A stretch of 24,247 bases of DNA from a virus. The position numbers and the translations under genes were made by a program. The notes below the pieces were generated by a model, which was not told the DNA's origin, made no database searches, and was given only the letters and a program-made list of their open reading frames with translations. Position 1 is the stretch's first letter; each line of letters begins with the position of its first letter. Shown piece by piece: positions 1,505-24,247 of the stretch. The stretch covers positions 64,001 through 88,247 of IMG/VR virus record IMGVR_UViG_3300033997_000074; one strand, 5' to 3'.

Positions 1505-4500
1505 TTGCTTAAGAATGTAATTAAGAACAACGGTGTTGTAGAAGAGTTTAGTGCAGAGAAGCTTAATAAGTGGGCACAATATGCCACTAAAACAGGCGGT
1601 AACTGGTCTGAGATTGCAATGGAAACGTATAAGCGTCTCCCTGAGACAGCAAAGTCCTCTGATATTCACCAGATGATGATTAATGTTTGTTTGGACAAGG
1701 AAGATATTAACTATTCCCGCATTGCTGCACGTCTTGAACAAGCAAGCCTTCGTAAGAATATGGAGCGTGTTCTTGGTGTATCTGATCGGGACAGTTTTAA
1801 AGCAATCTTTGAAGCAATGATTCGTGGTGGTGTTTGGGATGAAAAGACTATGCCTGAATACAACCCGGTATGGGAAAGTTGGTATGAGGAGATTTATCCA
1901 ACTAAGCTTGAATACTGGCAAATTGTTCAGTGGGGCGATAAGTATGCTATTCGTAAGGATGATGTACCTGTAGAAACTCCTCACATTGGTTGCATTGGCA
2001 TTGGTCTTGGCTTGCATGGTGATACGCAAGAAGCTTTTGATCTTGCTAAAGCTTTGGTAGAAGGAAAAGTAAATCTTCCAACCCCTGCACTTAACGGTAT
2101 TCGCACAGGAGATTTTGATACCATTAGTTGCTGCATTATCACCGGAGGGGATAGCGTAGACAGTATTGGTGTTGCCGAACACATTGCTTATAAGATGACG
2201 GCAAAGAAAGCAGGCATCGGTATTGAGTTTGATACGCGCTCGAAAGGGGCACCAGTTAAAGGTGGGGCTGTAAAGCATTTGGGTAAACACCCGATTTATT
2301 CTACCCTCGACAAAGCTGTAAAGATGTTTACTCAGATTAGCCGTGGCGGTAGTGCTACAGTTACTTTTAAGTGTATTGATCCTGAAGTAGAAAGTATTGT
2401 TCTTTGGAAAACTCAGAGGGTAGATATCGAAACTCGTCTGGATAAGATGGACTACAGCTTTGCTTATAACGATGCTTTCTTGCAGGCTGTTATCAATAAT
2501 GAAGACTGGTATCTGTTTGATTTGACTGAGGCACCAGAGATTCACGAAGCTTTCTATGTGCTGAAGGCGGATAAATATAACTCCGTAGTCAAAGGTTGTA
2601 TTGAAAAGGGTAAGAAGTTTAAGAAACTAAAAGCCCGTGATCTACTAAAGAGTGTGTTGATTGCTCGTAATGAAACAGGGCGTATGTACTCCATTAACGT
2701 GACTCGTGTTAATGAGCATACGCCATTTATTGACGTTATCCGACTGTCAAATTTATGCGTTGCACCAGAAACACAGATTCTGACTAAGCAAGGGTATATT
2801 CCTATTGCCGAATTGGAGGGCGAGAAAGTAGATGTGTGGAACGGTAAAGAATGGTCTGAGGTTGATGTAGTAAAGACAGGTGTAAATCAAAAACTCGTCA
2901 AAGTTACCACTAACAGCGGGTACGAGCTTGAATGCACGCCTTACCACAAATTCTATATTTCAACTGCATACCACAGCCCGTATAAGGAAGTGCGTGCTTG
3001 TGATTTGAAGCCGGGGGATAAGTTGGCCAAATTTGACCTACCTGTTGTGGAAGGGCATGAAGAGCTTGAAAATGCCTATATTAACGGGTTCTACTCTGGT
3101 GATGGTTGTTTGACAGATCAGGGTCAACGTATCTACTTGTACGGAGAAAAGCGAGAACTTGCGGGGTTTTTCAACGGTGGAGGTAAGTGGACGGTCCAAG
3201 ATGAATTTAATCGGCAATACAAACACTTCCGCACTTTGAAAGATAAGTTCTTCGTTCCGTCCAACGGGTTTACGGTAAAAAGTAGACTTGATTGGTTGGC
3301 GGGCTACCTCGATGCAGACGGTTGTGTCTACAGGAATGGGGATAATGAGCAGATTGTTGCATCTTCAGTAGAAAAGAATTTTCTGCGTGAAGTCCAGATG
3401 ATGCTTCAAACTCTTGGTATTTCAGCAAAGATTACTAAGATGGGCGAAGAAGGTTTCCGACTGATGCCTGCTAATGATGGTACTGGAGAGCTAAAGGAGT
3501 TTTGGTGTCAGGAGAGTTATCGTCTGCTGATTACAAGCTGTGACGCATACAAGTTGCAAACAATGGGACTGAAGCCGAATCGTCTTAAGCTAACTATGCA
3601 AAAGCCTCAGCGGGATGCTAAACAATTTGTAAAAGTTGTTTCTGTGGTGGATGAGTGCCGAGTTGATGATACATACTGCTTCACAGAGCCAAAGCGTCAC
3701 ATGGGCATGTTTAATGGTCTGTTGACGGGTCAGTGTCAAGAAATTACACTCCCTACAAAAGCTTACAAGAATATGCAAGACTTGTATGCCGAAGAGTCAG
3801 AAGCTGAAACTGCTTTTTGTACACTTTCAGCAATTAATGTTGGTAAAGTAAGTTTTGAAGAGTATGAGTATGTGGCCGAAGTTGCTTTGCGTGCTGTAGA
3901 CAAGATGATTGACAAAGCGCCAATGATGACAGCTTCAATGAAGAACAGCATCATGCGTCGTCGTAGTGCAGGGGTTGGTATTACGGGGTTGGCTGGAGCG
4001 CTGTATCGTGAAGGTCTTGATTATGATGGTAGCGAAGAGTCTTTTACCTTTGTGAGCAAAATTGCTGAAACCCATTACTTTTATCTTCTGAAAGCTTCTC
4101 AGAAATTGGCAGAAGAAAGTGGCTATGCTGTTGAGGGTATTAAGAAAGATTGGTTGCCTGTTGACACTCGCGTGAACAAAGGCTACACTCTGACGCTTGA
4201 TTGGGAGTCGCTTCGTGGTAAGCCCCGTAAGCATTCTGTGCTAGCTGCACATATGCCTACAGAGTCAAGTGCTGTGTTCTGTGATGCAGATAACAGCTTG
4301 TACCCACCACGGCAGAAAGTGATTAACAAGAAATCTCGGAAAGGTATCATTCAGTATATCTCGAAAGATTGGACGCCGGGTAAGAAACTGGCTTGGGACG
4401 TGGACAACATTACTTTGTCCAAGTATTATTCCAGAGTACAGGATTTTACTGACCAAGCTATCAGTGCTGATTACTACTTTGATCCGAGTAAATATGAAGA

Positions 4501-4669
4501 TGAGAAGAAGCCGCTAAGTGAGCTTATGAAGGAATGGGTAGCACAGGCTAAGGCCGGGAATAAGACCCAGTACTACATGAACACCCGCGACTACAACGGA
4601 GGTGGTGTTCAAGGTATCCTTGGTGCTACACAACCTGAAGAGGAAGCTTGCGAAAGCTGCAAACTTTAA
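1505..4669 (+). CDS. nrdA: Class Ia ribonucleotide reductase large subunit with intein
   Basis: The 1054-aa precursor is NrdA interrupted by a 326-aa intein (residues 418-743); the spliced enzyme would have 728 aa, slightly shorter than E. coli NrdA. It reduces ribonucleoside diphosphates. Visible features are an N-terminal ATP-cone (about residues 1-90), Cys209 in ISCCIITGGDS matching E. coli C225, the SNL|CQE site matching N437/C439/E441, FCTLSA carrying the C462 equivalent, QYYMNTRD carrying the Y730/Y731 radical-transfer pair, and the C-terminal swinging-arm cysteines in ACESCKL. The start is TTG 1505, supported by GAGGAG at 1493-1498; no ATG occurs early enough to keep the ATP-cone. nrdB follows immediately. 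Confidence 0.96.
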   Translation: MLKNVIKNNGVVEEFSAEKLNKWAQYATKTGGNWSEIAMETYKRLPETAKSSDIHQMMINVCLDKEDINYSRIAARLEQASLRKNMERVLGVSDRDSFKAIFEAMIRGGVWDEKTMPEYNPVWESWYEEIYPTKLEYWQIVQWGDKYAIRKDDVPVETPHIGCIGIGLGLHGDTQEAFDLAKALVEGKVNLPTPALNGIRTGDFDTISCCIITGGDSVDSIGVAEHIAYKMTAKKAGIGIEFDTRSKGAPVKGGAVKHLGKHPIYSTLDKAVKMFTQISRGGSATVTFKCIDPEVESIVLWKTQRVDIETRLDKMDYSFAYNDAFLQAVINNEDWYLFDLTEAPEIHEAFYVLKADKYNSVVKGCIEKGKKFKKLKARDLLKSVLIARNETGRMYSINVTRVNEHTPFIDVIRLSNLCVAPETQILTKQGYIPIAELEGEKVDVWNGKEWSEVDVVKTGVNQKLVKVTTNSGYELECTPYHKFYISTAYHSPYKEVRACDLKPGDKLAKFDLPVVEGHEELENAYINGFYSGDGCLTDQGQRIYLYGEKRELAGFFNGGGKWTVQDEFNRQYKHFRTLKDKFFVPSNGFTVKSRLDWLAGYLDADGCVYRNGDNEQIVASSVEKNFLREVQMMLQTLGISAKITKMGEEGFRLMPANDGTGELKEFWCQESYRLLITSCDAYKLQTMGLKPNRLKLTMQKPQRDAKQFVKVVSVVDECRVDDTYCFTEPKRHMGMFNGLLTGQCQEITLPTKAYKNMQDLYAEESEAETAFCTLSAINVGKVSFEEYEYVAEVALRAVDKMIDKAPMMTASMKNSIMRRRSAGVGITGLAGALYREGLDYDGSEESFTFVSKIAETHYFYLLKASQKLAEESGYAVEGIKKDWLPVDTRVNKGYTLTLDWESLRGKPRKHSVLAAHMPTESSAVFCDADNSLYPPRQKVINKKSRKGIIQYISKDWTPGKKLAWDVDNITLSKYYSRVQDFTDQAISADYYFDPSKYEDEKKPLSELMKEWVAQAKAGNKTQYYMNTRDYNGGGVQGILGATQPEEEACESCKL
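2756..3733 (+). mobile_element. NrdA intein with LAGLIDADG-type (DOD) homing endonuclease
   Basis: The intein begins with Cys at CVAPETQILT (precursor residue 418) and ends HMGMFNGLLTGQ, directly followed by the extein Cys744. Block A (CVAPETQILT) and block B (LECTPYHKF, with the TxxH-like arrangement) are present. The two endonuclease motifs are INGFYSGDG and LAGYLDADG, so the homing endonuclease looks complete. Block F (TYCFTEPKRHMGMFNG) is clear. The last residue is Gln rather than Asn and the usual penultimate His is replaced by Gly. The insertion point lies between SNL and CQE, so the +1 nucleophile is the catalytic radical cysteine of the reductase. Splicing is therefore required for an active enzyme. 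Confidence 0.93.
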
Positions 4670-7034: not shown

Positions 7035-7658
7035 GTGAAGAAAAAGAAATTACTCTATGGTGTTGGAATAAATGATGCAGATTATGCTGTGGAAAAGTGT
7101 GAAACGATCAACTATGAAAACGGTGAACAAAAGCGGAAACTTGTGTGGATTTGTCCATTCTACTGTAAATGGAGAGACATGCTTCGGCGGTGCTACTCCG
7201 CTAAGTGGCAAGAAAAGTATCCAACCTACATTGGCTGCTCTGTCTGTAAAGACTGGCTTGTCTTTTCAAACTTTAAACATTGGATGGAAAAGCAAGATTG
7301 GGAAGGAAAACAATTAGATAAAGACCTGTTGCTACAAGGTAACGAAGTATACAGCCCCCGTGCCTGTGTCTTTGTGGACAAGAAGGTTAATTTGTTCGTA
7401 ACTGAAAGAAATGCTTCTCGTGGGCGATTGATGATTGGTGTCTGCTGGCATAGAGGGGCTAATAAATTTCAGGCGCTGTGTGGCGATGGATCAGGAAAGC
7501 AGAAACATCTCGGACTCTTCGACACAGAACTCGAAGCTCACAAAGCATGGCTTGCTTTTAAACTTGAACAAGCTAAAATTCTTGCTGCTGAACAATCTGA
7601 CCCTCGTGTTGCTAAAGCTTTGATTGAACGCTACGAAAACTATGTGATTGAAGAGTGA
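7035..7658 (+). CDS. AP2-domain homing-endonuclease-like protein
   Basis: The 207-aa protein resembles a family common in phages and often annotated as HNH or AP2 homing endonucleases. The N-terminal half has WRDMLRRCYS (46-55), YPTYIGCSVCKDW (62-74), a conserved LDKDLL (94-99) and YSPRACVFV (106-114). The C-terminal half has an AP2-like DNA-binding module: IGVCWHRGANKFQAL (134-148), then HLGLFDTELEAHKAW (158-172). GTG 7035 follows AGGAGGTG. It is the last gene before the terminator, a typical niche for a free-standing mobile endonuclease. No classical HNH triad is obvious, so nuclease activity is inferred from family resemblance only. Confidence 0.7.
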   Translation: MKKKKLLYGVGINDADYAVEKCETINYENGEQKRKLVWICPFYCKWRDMLRRCYSAKWQEKYPTYIGCSVCKDWLVFSNFKHWMEKQDWEGKQLDKDLLLQGNEVYSPRACVFVDKKVNLFVTERNASRGRLMIGVCWHRGANKFQALCGDGSGKQKHLGLFDTELEAHKAWLAFKLEQAKILAAEQSDPRVAKALIERYENYVIEE

Positions 7659-16537: not shown

Positions 16538-17421
16538 TTTGTACTCACCACCTTTTCAATAGCACTGGCCTTAACTTCAGTGAACCAATCGTTGTCCCTC
16601 CAACCACCAAAGTGCCGCACATCATCAACCTTGTACCAACCTTGAATGAGTGTGTCTTCCAGCTTAACGATAGAGCCAGCAACGATATCTGGATTTAAGA
16701 GCATTCTCCACTGGACGCCTTGCTTCTTAACTTTATCTTTCTTTGATCGGCGCTCATCTGATGTAACACGATAAGCATTTTCAATCAAACCTGTATATCT
16801 TGATACTACGTAAGCCTGATCGAAGTTTTCGTCATTTGCTCTGTCTTTGTCGTGGACATACAAAACGTCGTCATCTACTTGCCAATCAAGTTGGTATTTC
16901 TCGCTCAGCTCATTCAGCATCTGCTTAGGTGTGCCGATCAGCGGATAACCATACAACACTTGATTGTTTAGATTTGTGCCGTTGTATACACCGCGAGAAA
17001 CGCCGGGAAGATTCTTACGGATATCTTCTAAAACCGCTTTAACATCTCGTCCGGGACTGGTAAGTTGGTTTAGGAGTGTATGGTTAAGATCAGTATAACC
17101 ACTACCCATACGCAGTTGAGTAATCCTATCTGTTCCACTTTTTCTAGTGGTTACTAGGTATACTTGCCCAGCAAAAAGCTGTTTAATTCCAATATCTCTA
17201 TATCCTACAGAGAAGGAAGCAAACGGGTAATCTGTATCCAAGACTCTCAAAGATTCGTCTGAAAGGTTATATATCTCTATAGCTGCGGAGTTTGTTTTAT
17301 CTTTATTGTTGGCAGACTTACTAACATCAAACGTAACTTGTAAATTTTGGATTAGTAGTCCATCTCCACTCTTCCAATCTCCGATTGAGAGAGAGTATTC
17401 CCTGTTACGTTGAAGTAGCAT
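16534..17421 (-). CDS. Baseplate hub protein (gp27/gpD-like)
   Basis: The 295-aa protein resembles the phage late control D / gp27 hub family. IQNLQVTFDVSKSANNKDKT and the following AAIEIYNLSDESL (residues 24-58) are typical of the first domain, while LIGTPKQMLNELSEKYQLDW (about 177-196) is the usual second-domain segment. It forms the trimeric hub between tail tube and spike. It overlaps the spike gene by 4 nt (ATGA) and is followed 5' by the small plug-like gene with a 2-nt gap. Confidence 0.85.
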   Translation of the reverse strand: MLLQRNREYSLSIGDWKSGDGLLIQNLQVTFDVSKSANNKDKTNSAAIEIYNLSDESLRVLDTDYPFASFSVGYRDIGIKQLFAGQVYLVTTRKSGTDRITQLRMGSGYTDLNHTLLNQLTSPGRDVKAVLEDIRKNLPGVSRGVYNGTNLNNQVLYGYPLIGTPKQMLNELSEKYQLDWQVDDDVLYVHDKDRANDENFDQAYVVSRYTGLIENAYRVTSDERRSKKDKVKKQGVQWRMLLNPDIVAGSIVKLEDTLIQGWYKVDDVRHFGGWRDNDWFTEVKASAIEKVVSTK

Positions 17422-22108: not shown

Positions 22109-22633
22109 TTACAGACGCCAGCGAGCGTCTACTTGACCGCCAAGACCTTCGATAGCGGCAGCTGTAGATTCATCAATCAGCGTGTTGCCGCCTATTTTAC
22201 CTGTAGCATTAAACAGGAAAATTGTCCAGTCGCGCTGTTCAGCAGTGTTTGAGAAGACAATATCCGGTGAAACTTCAATAAAAGCTTGATTGGAGTGCAG
22301 CAGCGTAGTCCCGCTATTATCTTTAATCATCACACTCCCAATAAACTCATTGCGAGATGCCTCTTCATCAGCTGCTTGCCAAGCTTCCATAAAGTTATTA
22401 CTTGCAGTGAACTGCATAAGGCTAAGGGTGACTCGACGAGATGTGTTGCGACGCTTTACCCTTCCGCCTTGATTATCGCTCCCCTGAAATGCCTCTGCCG
22501 GGGGGATGTTACGAGTTGCAGTGATGAAAGTTCCTTCAGCGTAACCAGTTACATTGTGAACCTGTCCACCAACGCTGATTACAACAGTAACTTCTTCTGG
22601 GGTGTAGGAACCCAAAATAGCTTCATTTGCCAT
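22109..22633 (-). CDS. Tail tube-like protein, paralogue 1 (probable main tube protein)
   Basis: The 174-aa protein (MANEAILGSYTPEEVTVVIS) is the first of three paralogues. It has GYAEGTFITATRNIPPAEAF, then SVMIKDNSGTTLLHSNQAFI and QRDWTIFLFNATGKIGGNT. The size and order after the sheath-like gene fit the major tail tube subunit of DUF3277-type phages. It carries the fullest N-terminal loop, including a polar insertion with GSDNQGGRVKRRNTSRR. A short non-coding gap follows before paralogue 2, which suggests that this gene is expressed most strongly, though that is inference. Confidence 0.8.
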   Translation of the reverse strand: MANEAILGSYTPEEVTVVISVGGQVHNVTGYAEGTFITATRNIPPAEAFQGSDNQGGRVKRRNTSRRVTLSLMQFTASNNFMEAWQAADEEASRNEFIGSVMIKDNSGTTLLHSNQAFIEVSPDIVFSNTAEQRDWTIFLFNATGKIGGNTLIDESTAAAIEGLGGQVDARWRL

Positions 22634-22649
22634 TTAATTTACCTCAAAA

Positions 22650-23534
22650 TTAAGCTCTCACGGTGTTGTTAGGCCTAACCCCATGAAAATCTTCATAAAA
22701 ATTATCGTAAACCGTCGCAGCCTCTTCCTCGGAGAGAAAAGTTCTGTCGAAGATTTTCTTACCCTTGAAAAACATTTTTGACCTAAATTTTCCATTATCC
22801 CTTAGAGTAACACCTATAGATTTGGGAGAGTTATCTAATTTAGGCTTACTCAGAACTCGTACTAATTTTTCTTCTACATCTCCCTTCCTTAGTAAAAGTT
22901 GTAGAAAATCAATAGACTTTCCCAATGCGGCGGAGGCATCAACCATCGTAGGAAACCAAAAACCCAGAAAATAGTATGGTCTATACCTAACAGATTTTTT
23001 ATTCTCGTGGTAAGTGTCTCCGAGAGTCCCCTCTTTAAGCCTCTTAAAGAAAGACTTTTTATTCATACCAAGGATTTCCATCCCTTTGAATCTATCTGGA
23101 AACCAGAATCCTGAGATAAACACTGGTATATTTTTATACCTGCTTTCCCTCGGTTTTCGGTTCTCTTTCAAATAGTTTGGATTCTCTTCGTAAAATTTTA
23201 ACAGGCTCAGCGACATTCTTTCCCTGACATCCTCTGGCACGGTGACCCCGAAAGAATTTGGATGGTGTCCAAGTATGTTGTAGCCGTTTTTAATCGAGTT
23301 GTACGCTTTTATGGCTTTTTCTTCTAGGTCAAGGATGAATTCTTCAGAACCAACACAAAGAACTTCGAAAAGAAAATTTTCTTTTCCGTACTTCTCAATA
23401 GCCCTGCGCAACTTAGTACAAGTGGAACCTTTGGAGAAGTGCTCTCTGCGCCTTTCATTGGGTCTGGAAGTTATGCCGATATACGCTTTCTCGTTGATGA
23501 CATTTGTCATCTTGTATAGATAAAACTTTCTCAT
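22650..23534 (-). CDS. Free-standing GIY-YIG homing endonuclease
   Basis: The 294-aa protein starts MRKFYLYKMTNVINEKAYIG: the GIY motif is represented by YLYKMTN (residues 5-11) and YIG is at 18-20. Arg residues follow at 24-30, with LRRAIEKYGKENF (42-54) and the catalytic-type Glu71 in LDLEEKAIKAYNS. Two similar DNA-binding modules come next (FISGFWFPDRFKGMEILG, about 139-156, and FLGFWFPTMVDASAALG, about 189-205), then an AP2-like end with IGVTLRDNGKFRSK (240-253). ATG 23534 is supported by GGAGG (23542-23538); the longer frame upstream overlaps the sheath-like gene and has no such site. It sits between two structural genes and is a mobile element. Confidence 0.9.
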   Translation of the reverse strand: MRKFYLYKMTNVINEKAYIGITSRPNERRREHFSKGSTCTKLRRAIEKYGKENFLFEVLCVGSEEFILDLEEKAIKAYNSIKNGYNILGHHPNSFGVTVPEDVRERMSLSLLKFYEENPNYLKENRKPRESRYKNIPVFISGFWFPDRFKGMEILGMNKKSFFKRLKEGTLGDTYHENKKSVRYRPYYFLGFWFPTMVDASAALGKSIDFLQLLLRKGDVEEKLVRVLSKPKLDNSPKSIGVTLRDNGKFRSKMFFKGKKIFDRTFLSEEEAATVYDNFYEDFHGVRPNNTVRA

Positions 23535-23594
23535 TTGACCTCCTGCAAAATTTAAGACTCCTTCAATTTTAGAGTATTTATTACAGGAGGTCAA
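23535..23594 (-). promoter_or_regulatory. Inverted repeat covering the ribosome binding site of the GIY-YIG gene
   Basis: TTGACCTCCTG (23535-23545 on the plus strand) and CAGGAGGTCAA (23584-23594) are perfect 11-bp inverted repeats with a 38-nt loop. On the mRNA (minus strand) the 3' arm is CAGGAGGTCAA directly before ATG, so the Shine-Dalgarno sequence is fully paired. An inner AAAATT / AATTTT pair (23547-23552, 23565-23570) extends the hairpin. The 5' arm begins 7 nt after the stop of the sheath-like gene. It resembles the RBS-hiding hairpins of phage homing endonucleases such as I-TevI. Confidence 0.75.
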
Positions 23595-23601
23595 GCGTTG
23601 A

Positions 23602-23907
23602 CTACACGGAAAGGTAACCCTCAATCTCAATTCGGCGAATGCTGCCTGCCAACCGGGCGCGGAATACGAAAACGCCAGCGGTTCGTTGAGCACGTAGATT
23701 CGGATCAATGCTCAAGACATCTGGGGTAGAGACGCTCCAACCACGATCAATAGCGCCGTTAGCTTCTGCCTGAGAAAGAACGGTACGGATTTCATTCTCA
23801 ATAATAGCCAGACCAGGATTGGTCATCGGAATCTTCAAGCTATTAATCAGACGGAAATAAATGCTTTCTTGCAGGCGGGCATACAGCCAGTCGATGACAA
23901 TCTGTTC
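23602..23907 (-). CDS. 3' exon of a DUF3383-type tail sheath-like protein
   Basis: Translation of this stretch gives EQIVIDWLYARLQESIYFRL, then a segment with NPGLAIIENEIRTVLSQAEA and the end RARLAGSIRRIEIEGYLSV. This is the C-terminal part of the DUF3383 family (myovirus sheath-like protein), which usually reads DWL.ARLQE....L near here and ends in a short beta hairpin. There is no start codon near its beginning; instead, in-frame TGA and TAA lie just upstream (about 23919-23911). The first 101 codons therefore look like an exon that depends on splicing to an upstream exon outside the window. The exact junction (23907/23908) is inferred from the frame. Confidence 0.75.
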   Translation of the reverse strand, partial: EQIVIDWLYARLQESIYFRLINSLKIPMTNPGLAIIENEIRTVLSQAEANGAIDRGWSVSTPDVLSIDPNLRAQRTAGVFVFRARLAGSIRRIEIEGYLSV

Positions 23908-24247
23908 CGTTTATGTTCATGCGGGGTCGTTAATCCCGCACTGCTAAGGTTTAGGCTTCCGAGACCAACCATGTTGAGCCCGTTTGCACCAGTTCTCTAC
24001 CACACAATAGTCCAAATCTTCTGAATAATATTTGGCAGCATATATCGGGCTTTGAAACTCTAAACCTTCGGGTGATACAAATAAATTTAAACTTTTAGAA
24101 GAGGTTTTGTGCAGGTACTCTTCATTTCTTTGCGCGTTTTTAATTACTTCCTCGGAGAGAGATTTTGAATTTTCTTTCTTCAAGGCCACAGACTTTTCAA
24201 TCATCGAGGCATAGTGTTCTTGGTTTTCTGTTGCCCACTTTTTCATT
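23908..24247 (-). mobile_element. 3' part of a probable group I intron in the sheath-like gene
   Basis: The segment separates the sheath-like 3' exon from the window edge. Immediately before the exon, on the minus strand, lies a 6-bp hairpin TGCGGG / CCCGCA (23940-23935 and 23925-23920), followed by TGAACATAAACG, which would end in the conserved terminal G of a group I intron. It encodes a homing-endonuclease-like protein. The catalytic core (P3-P8) is not visible and must lie further 5', outside this window, so the group I class is an inference. A free-standing insertion that disrupted the gene is the alternative. Confidence 0.5.
23944..24247 (-). CDS. Intron-encoded homing endonuclease, C-terminal part (partial)
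   Basis: About 100 residues run into the window edge. They include a helical Lys/Glu-rich stretch (ENQEHYASMIEKSVALKK) and a C-terminal module LFVSPEGLEFQSPIYAAKYY, ending WCKRAQHGWSRKPKP. This is the small DNA-recognition repeat found at the ends of phage homing endonucleases (HNH or GIY-YIG type; the usual form is VxxPEGxFxSxxEAA...WCxxxxxGWSxK). The catalytic domain is outside the window. An ATG at 24246 may be internal. Its stop lies 36 nt before the putative exon start. Confidence 0.7.
   Translation of the reverse strand, partial: MKKWATENQEHYASMIEKSVALKKENSKSLSEEVIKNAQRNEEYLHKTSSKSLNLFVSPEGLEFQSPIYAAKYYSEDLDYCVVENWCKRAQHGWSRKPKP

Follow-up and report, generated by a model that had tools for sequence, protein, structure and literature searches.

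What controls a homing endonuclease gene that has settled in the structural operon of a phage, just downstream of the tail sheath gene? The question is raised by a sheath/tube junction in the window, by which we mean the whole stretch of viral DNA analyzed here (24,247 nucleotides, positions 64,001 to 88,247 of IMG/VR record IMGVR_UViG_3300033997_000074). On the minus strand, the last sheath exon is followed there by a 67-nt spacer, a GIY-YIG gene, and the tail tube gene. For T4-type phages, it is textbook knowledge that homing endonucleases have hairpins over the ribosome binding site (RBS) and that these are released by phage late promoters. We consider it quite probable, on the model developed below, that the sheath/tube spacer acts as a promoter-in-hairpin switch of the inserted gene. 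The features of the locus are as follows.

22109 to 22633, minus strand: tail tube gene, identified by tblastn to tail tube proteins; downstream of the endonuclease gene
22650 to 23534, minus strand: GIY-YIG homing endonuclease gene, 294 aa, ATG at 23534-23532
23535 to 23548, minus strand: hairpin 3' arm, TTGCAGGAGGTCAA, abutting the start codon
23539 to 23544, minus strand: Shine-Dalgarno (SD) sequence AGGAGG, all bases paired in the hairpin by sequence and fold
23557 to 23561, minus strand: predicted transcription start (about 23559), placed from the -10 box; leader of about 25 nt without the 5' arm
23566 to 23571, minus strand: predicted -10 box TAAAAT, 17 nt past the -35 box, in the loop
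23581 to 23594, minus strand: hairpin 5' arm, TTGACCTCCTGTAA, pairing with the RBS arm; perfect part 23584-23594
23589 to 23594, minus strand: predicted -35 box TTGACC, coinciding with the base of the 5' arm
23602 to 23907, minus strand: last exon of the tail sheath gene, identified by DUF3383 and tblastn to sheath proteins
23908 to 24247, minus strand: 3' portion of the sheath-gene group I intron, which has an HNH ORF; continues past the window edge

The inserted ORF matches PF01541 (E 3e-9) and PHROG homing endonuclease (E 8e-28). It is free-standing, lying between the sheath stop (TAG, 23604-23602) and the tube start, and its catalytic domain is outside any intron or intein, as in seg-type free-standing homing endonucleases. 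The insertion is polymorphic, being absent from 49 distinct sheath/tube junctions as well as from PaP1 and M1. A group I intron ends upstream of it, in the sheath gene, about 300 bp away (window 23908-24247; 3518-4627 of L003, a second assembled contig); it matches Intron_gpI of Rfam in L003 (E 1.8e-19), and its HNH ORF matches PF01844 (E 9e-5). Its ends were assigned by eye using P1 and the sheath alignment, and the sheath exon start at 23907 was deduced from the ends as read in L003. This intron is a neighboring element and stands outside the switch. The window further contains a LAGLIDADG intein within the ribonucleotide reductase large subunit (1505-4669) and, beside the nucleotide-metabolism block, a free-standing HNH/AP2-type endonuclease gene (7035-7658) with an unlocked start region. 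No lock was found at the other homing genes of the same phage, namely the HNH gene at 7035 and the HNH ORF of the sheath intron.

The 5' arm of the hairpin begins 7 nt past the sheath stop. Its first part, TTGACCTCCTG (23594-23584, minus strand), is fully complementary to CAGGAGGTCAA (23545-23535), which directly adjoins the endonuclease ATG. The original prediction had placed the RBS in an 11-bp perfect hairpin with AGGAGG fully paired, and sequence, fold, and second contig all bear this out; the complete helix is nevertheless longer, reaching 14 bp by the addition of one G·U and two A-U pairs (TTGACCTCCTGTAA, 23594-23581, with TTGCAGGAGGTCAA, 23548-23535). L003 is 100% identical over 5.8 kb and carries the same hairpin sequence, so the structure is not a slip of one assembly. 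The region from 23620 to 23515 folds at -30.7 kcal/mol (z -3.75), with 1 of 200 dinucleotide shuffles equally good, and among the approximately 155 genes called in the 88-kb genome no other has a perfect stem of more than 7 bp covering its SD sequence. We also calculated an opening energy, defined as the cost of freeing positions -16 to +3 around a start codon. At 18.8 kcal/mol, the endonuclease start ranks first among 145 genes (mean 6.3, SD 2.9), and the hairpin differs from shuffles of the upstream spacer with the SD region kept fixed (p = 0.010, 200 shuffles). Two further genes of this phage, at 31882-32334 and 16865-17149 of G000:C1, likewise have strongly structured starts (wide opening energies of 20.9 and 19.6 kcal/mol), both putative start calls. 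An Rfam scan of the window gave no RNA family close to the hairpin site. We also considered the hairpin as a terminator and rejected this, as there is no terminator-like site there.

The same spacer contains a sigma70-type promoter match, TTGACC-17-TAAAAT (10/12), the sole minus-strand match in 2.2 kb (p = 0.002 for the whole promoter against spacer shuffles). Given the arm, the TAAAAT box taken alone is just mildly surprising for an A+T-rich loop. Sigma70-like sites scoring at least 10/12 are enriched in this genome (56 versus approximately 21 expected), and 16 of the 56 lie mostly in the intergenic part, which makes up 13% of the genome. The literature describes promoters of this type for KIL phages (PMC4791379) and, in PAK_P1-like phages, for early genes (PMC4309531). 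Because the -35 box falls in the 5' arm and the predicted start in the loop, the read-through mRNA would be locked and the promoter mRNA free; the calculated opening energy drops from 18.8 kcal/mol on the former to 4.4 on RNA from the predicted internal start. A start within 23546-23583 that releases the site, as originally proposed, is thus supported in silico by the predicted sigma70-type start near 23559. The proposed likeness to the logic of I-TevI has in silico support too, but the T4 late promoter that went with it does not, since the boxes are of the host sigma70 type. We did consider a T4-late promoter in the loop, where AATAAATA (23582-23575) is one mismatch from TATAAATA. The motif is probably a coincidence because the relatives do not share it and because a search of this genome record gave no gp55 homologue, the latter a weak negative.

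We propose that RNA reading through from the sheath operon, which contains both arms, would pair its SD sequence and start codon and hardly be translated into nuclease. The promoter would share the same stretch of approximately 60 bp: the base of the 5' arm would serve as the -35 box, and the -35/-10 spacer, where polymerase tolerates most sequences, would hold much of the anti-RBS arm. Only polymerase arriving from upstream would transcribe that arm. Transcripts from the gene's own promoter would start in the loop without the 5' arm, leaving the ribosome site exposed. With the RBS locked on read-through RNA and free on promoter RNA, the nuclease would therefore be made from its own promoter only and not from the abundant structural message. 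The expectation that sheath read-through yields little endonuclease gains in silico support from the opening cost and from the recurrence of the arrangement described below. RNA in the cell folds during transcription and translation, which counts against the model. Promoter use, a working lock in the cell, and the timing are what we infer from this model; the gene's own promoter is likely early or constitutive and the read-through late, which would be the reverse of T4 timing.

A nucleotide search for the locus among named phages gave no match, but protein-level searches, three scans of IMG/VR among them, led to a total of 22 distinct junctions, from Pakpunavirus (PAK_P4, PaZq-1, and JG004) and metagenomic relatives, with a GIY-YIG gene and a sheath/tube spacer of 57 to 75 nt. 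In all 22, the start region is covered by a hairpin that contains a promoter-like site, with the -10 box ending 26 to 37 nt ahead of the start codon and predicted leaders of 20 to 31 nt. The arm sequences are unlike between lineages, yet pairing with the start region is kept in each. An average of 97% of the bases in the 5' arm precede the predicted start, and 59% of them fall within the -35/-10 spacer. Individually, 20/22 hairpins and 18/22 promoters differ from shuffles at p < 0.05; the exceptions are the hairpins of L308 (p 0.16) and L292 (p 0.065) and the weak promoters of L298, L314, L304, and L208. The combined p-values (1e-22 for hairpins and 3e-24 for promoters; 7e-19 and 4e-18 in a thinned set of 18) overstate independence, as the junctions are related by the tree.

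The spacer of Pakpunavirus has no sequence relation to that of the window, having TTGACA-16-TATCAT or TATTAT with an extended -10. Its hairpin is even stronger and buries the start codon and codons 2 to 8, the 3' arm lying inside those codons. Between PAK_P4 and PaZq-1, a compensatory change from A-U to G-C is protein-silent. When six close relatives were aligned, pair covariation was 0.330 versus 0.219±0.026 in shuffled alignments and at most 0.14 with slid partners; one covarying pair was seen as G-C, A-U, C-G, and U-A. Because many related phages have this arrangement at the same place irrespective of its sequence, the hairpin with its internal promoter is very probably a real control device.

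Control loci delimit this arrangement. At the 49 distinct junctions without the gene, no spacer has a promoter match of at least 9, and tube starts are open (mean 6.1), L210 (15.2) being the one exception; the spacers of these empty sites are shorter (median 30), so length explains part of the difference from occupied sites. Six orthologs with short spacers (0 to 17 nt) have neither hairpin nor promoter, and the same is true of the GIY-YIG genes inserted before the sheath in L166, L168, and L181; the one in L210 has moderate structure (12.2) and no promoter. At 155 GIY-YIG loci elsewhere, hairpins alone are somewhat more common than at control ORFs (18/155 versus 16/264), but a sigma70-type promoter and hairpin occur jointly in 1/155 versus 1/264. 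This lack of joint enrichment makes the module a property of the sheath/tube lineage. A GIY-YIG gene of L103 (about 2501), outside the sheath locus, is arranged similarly, with TTTACT-17-TATAAT and an extended -10 within its start-site hairpin. The GIY-YIG genes at L061 2459 and L286 2492 carry TATAAATA in the start-site hairpin, resembling the design of T4 segB and I-TevI.

In KIL1 and KIL4, the spacer is 291 nt long and holds a group I intron and annotated promoters with no lock. The intron core (L030 1807-2040 in KIL1 and L031 1565-1798 in KIL4) lies just past the sheath stop, before the GIY-YIG gene, which makes the sheath 3' end a hot spot for various homing elements. The KIL1 record has an apparent 1-nt shift near the sheath end. 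In L032 and L152, the GIY-YIG orthologs overlap the sheath stop (TGATGA), which suggests translational coupling as an alternative solution for the same locus. Searching the collection for the exact-arm DNA pattern returned the second contig of this phage and 17 other contigs. L011, L016, L026, and L027 have the same TTGACCTCCT...AGGAGGTCAA arms as the window before an unrelated gene of 146 to 147 aa, and the remaining matches are unrelated or transposon-like. The pattern is thus of no use for finding homologues.

Translational coupling could also be at work in the window itself, with ribosomes that finish the sheath melting the hairpin, so that nuclease would scale with sheath translation instead of depending on its own promoter. 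With 7 nt between the sheath stop and the 5' arm, a ribosome that terminates there could reach the base of that arm, and L032 and L152 show the classical coupled arrangement, though without a hairpin. In 22/22 junctions, however, the sheath stop lies upstream of the SD-pairing bases, 12 to 35 nt away, and the mean opening energy is 20.1 kcal/mol on read-through RNA, 16.5 (13.3 in the window) when a ribosome occupies the stop, and 5.6 on RNA that begins at the internal start. These energies favor the internal-promoter lock, and coupling leaves the promoter unexplained; we therefore regard it as improbable.

The remaining alternatives are less probable still. The inverted repeat could mainly be a DNA operator, bound by the endonuclease or another protein, with RNA pairing incidental; I-TevI autorepresses its promoter (PMC2988022), and the repeat in the window overlaps the promoter. 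We think this very improbable, as the arms are unrelated between lineages and always pair with the start region, the Pakpunavirus 3' arm lies within codons 2 to 8, and covariation speaks for pairing and against a fixed site, although an operator and RNA pairing could exist side by side. Equally slim is the chance that the hairpin is a by-product or serves RNA stability, processing, or attenuation and leaves translation uncontrolled. Intergenic structures can stabilize mRNA or undergo processing, but this one sits exactly over the SD sequence or start in 22 junctions, the predicted start always lies past the 5' arm, and nothing terminator-like accompanies it. A random inverted repeat meeting a random promoter match is the least probable reading. 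Promoter-like sites are common in A+T-rich DNA, and the joint occurrence at other GIY-YIG loci is close to that of controls, yet chance would have to produce the unique stem, the first rank in opening energy, the recurrence in 22 junctions, the shuffle p-values, the covariation, and the empty sites without a promoter.

The promoter-in-hairpin switch proposed for the window can be compared with several known systems. In phage T4, a stable hairpin hides the RBS of I-TevI, I-TevII, and I-TevIII on transcripts initiated upstream, and a promoter in or beside it gives shorter transcripts with the RBS free (PMC2988022); both features hold here by prediction. Those promoters are of the T4 middle or late type, whereas the gene in the window has a -35/-10 sigma70-type promoter. 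The three T4 genes are also intron-encoded, with an early or middle host operon and late nuclease (PMC2988022), whereas the gene studied here stands free within a structural operon whose expression is late in relatives. Closer in this respect are T4 segB and Aeh1 mobE, free-standing nucleases with an RBS hairpin and a promoter in the leader, but theirs is a T4-type late promoter in another phage group and at another insertion site. The portions of PMC2988022 and PMC3014915 on which this comparison is based report no recurrence in unrelated sequence. SegB is a GIY-YIG enzyme too, and its opening energy by our calculation is near that of the window gene (17.4 versus 18.8).

Like segB, I-TevII and lysozyme e of T4 are described as hairpin-controlled and served as positive controls. 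The same calculation gave 13.5 for I-TevII and 15.6 for lysozyme e (other T4 genes, mean 6.2), and as some further T4 genes score high, opening energy alone is not specific. Lysozyme e, like soc and 49, uses an RBS hairpin on early read-through RNA by the same switch logic, but e is an ordinary phage gene with a T4 late promoter and not a mobile element (PMC3014915). The window thus shares with I-TevI, segB, and mobE, by prediction, the hairpin-sequestered RBS and the promoter transcript without the 5' arm; it has sigma70-type boxes in place of a T4-type late or middle promoter, which makes it a variant beside that group and not a member of it. For the Pakpunavirus phage Adele, insertion of a GIY-YIG gene at the sheath/tube junction has been reported as a rare derived trait (PMC12846349), and this gene type (including PAK_P4, JG004, and PaZq-1) agrees with the window gene in family and insertion place. 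The portion of that report considered here mentions the insertion and neither hairpin nor promoter.

How the module arose can be approached from the tree, which needs approximately four changes between genes with and without it. It may accordingly be ancestral with losses or have been gained repeatedly, and the Pakpunavirus type, in which codons and not the SD sequence are buried, is placed among relatives without the module and may represent an independent gain. We found no report of a sigma70 version of the lock in the literature searched, which covered few of the subscription journals. What would be new is that a phage group other than the T4-type one has reached a known solution by means of a host-type promoter and at one insertion site. 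We give an even chance to the stronger claim of a conserved module whose sigma70 promoter, together with the -35/-10 spacer, serves at the same time as the anti-RBS arm, the architecture being kept while the sequence turns over. The idea lends itself to a direct test, since both PAK_P4 and JG004 exist in culture and RNA-seq work on PAK_P4 has been reported. The design would be compact, with promoter and translational lock within the same 60 bp or so. If true, it would allow early-only expression of the nuclease from within a late structural operon, and it suggests a general rule for selfish genes in such operons, which is to uncouple from the operon message and rely on a small dose from a promoter of their own.
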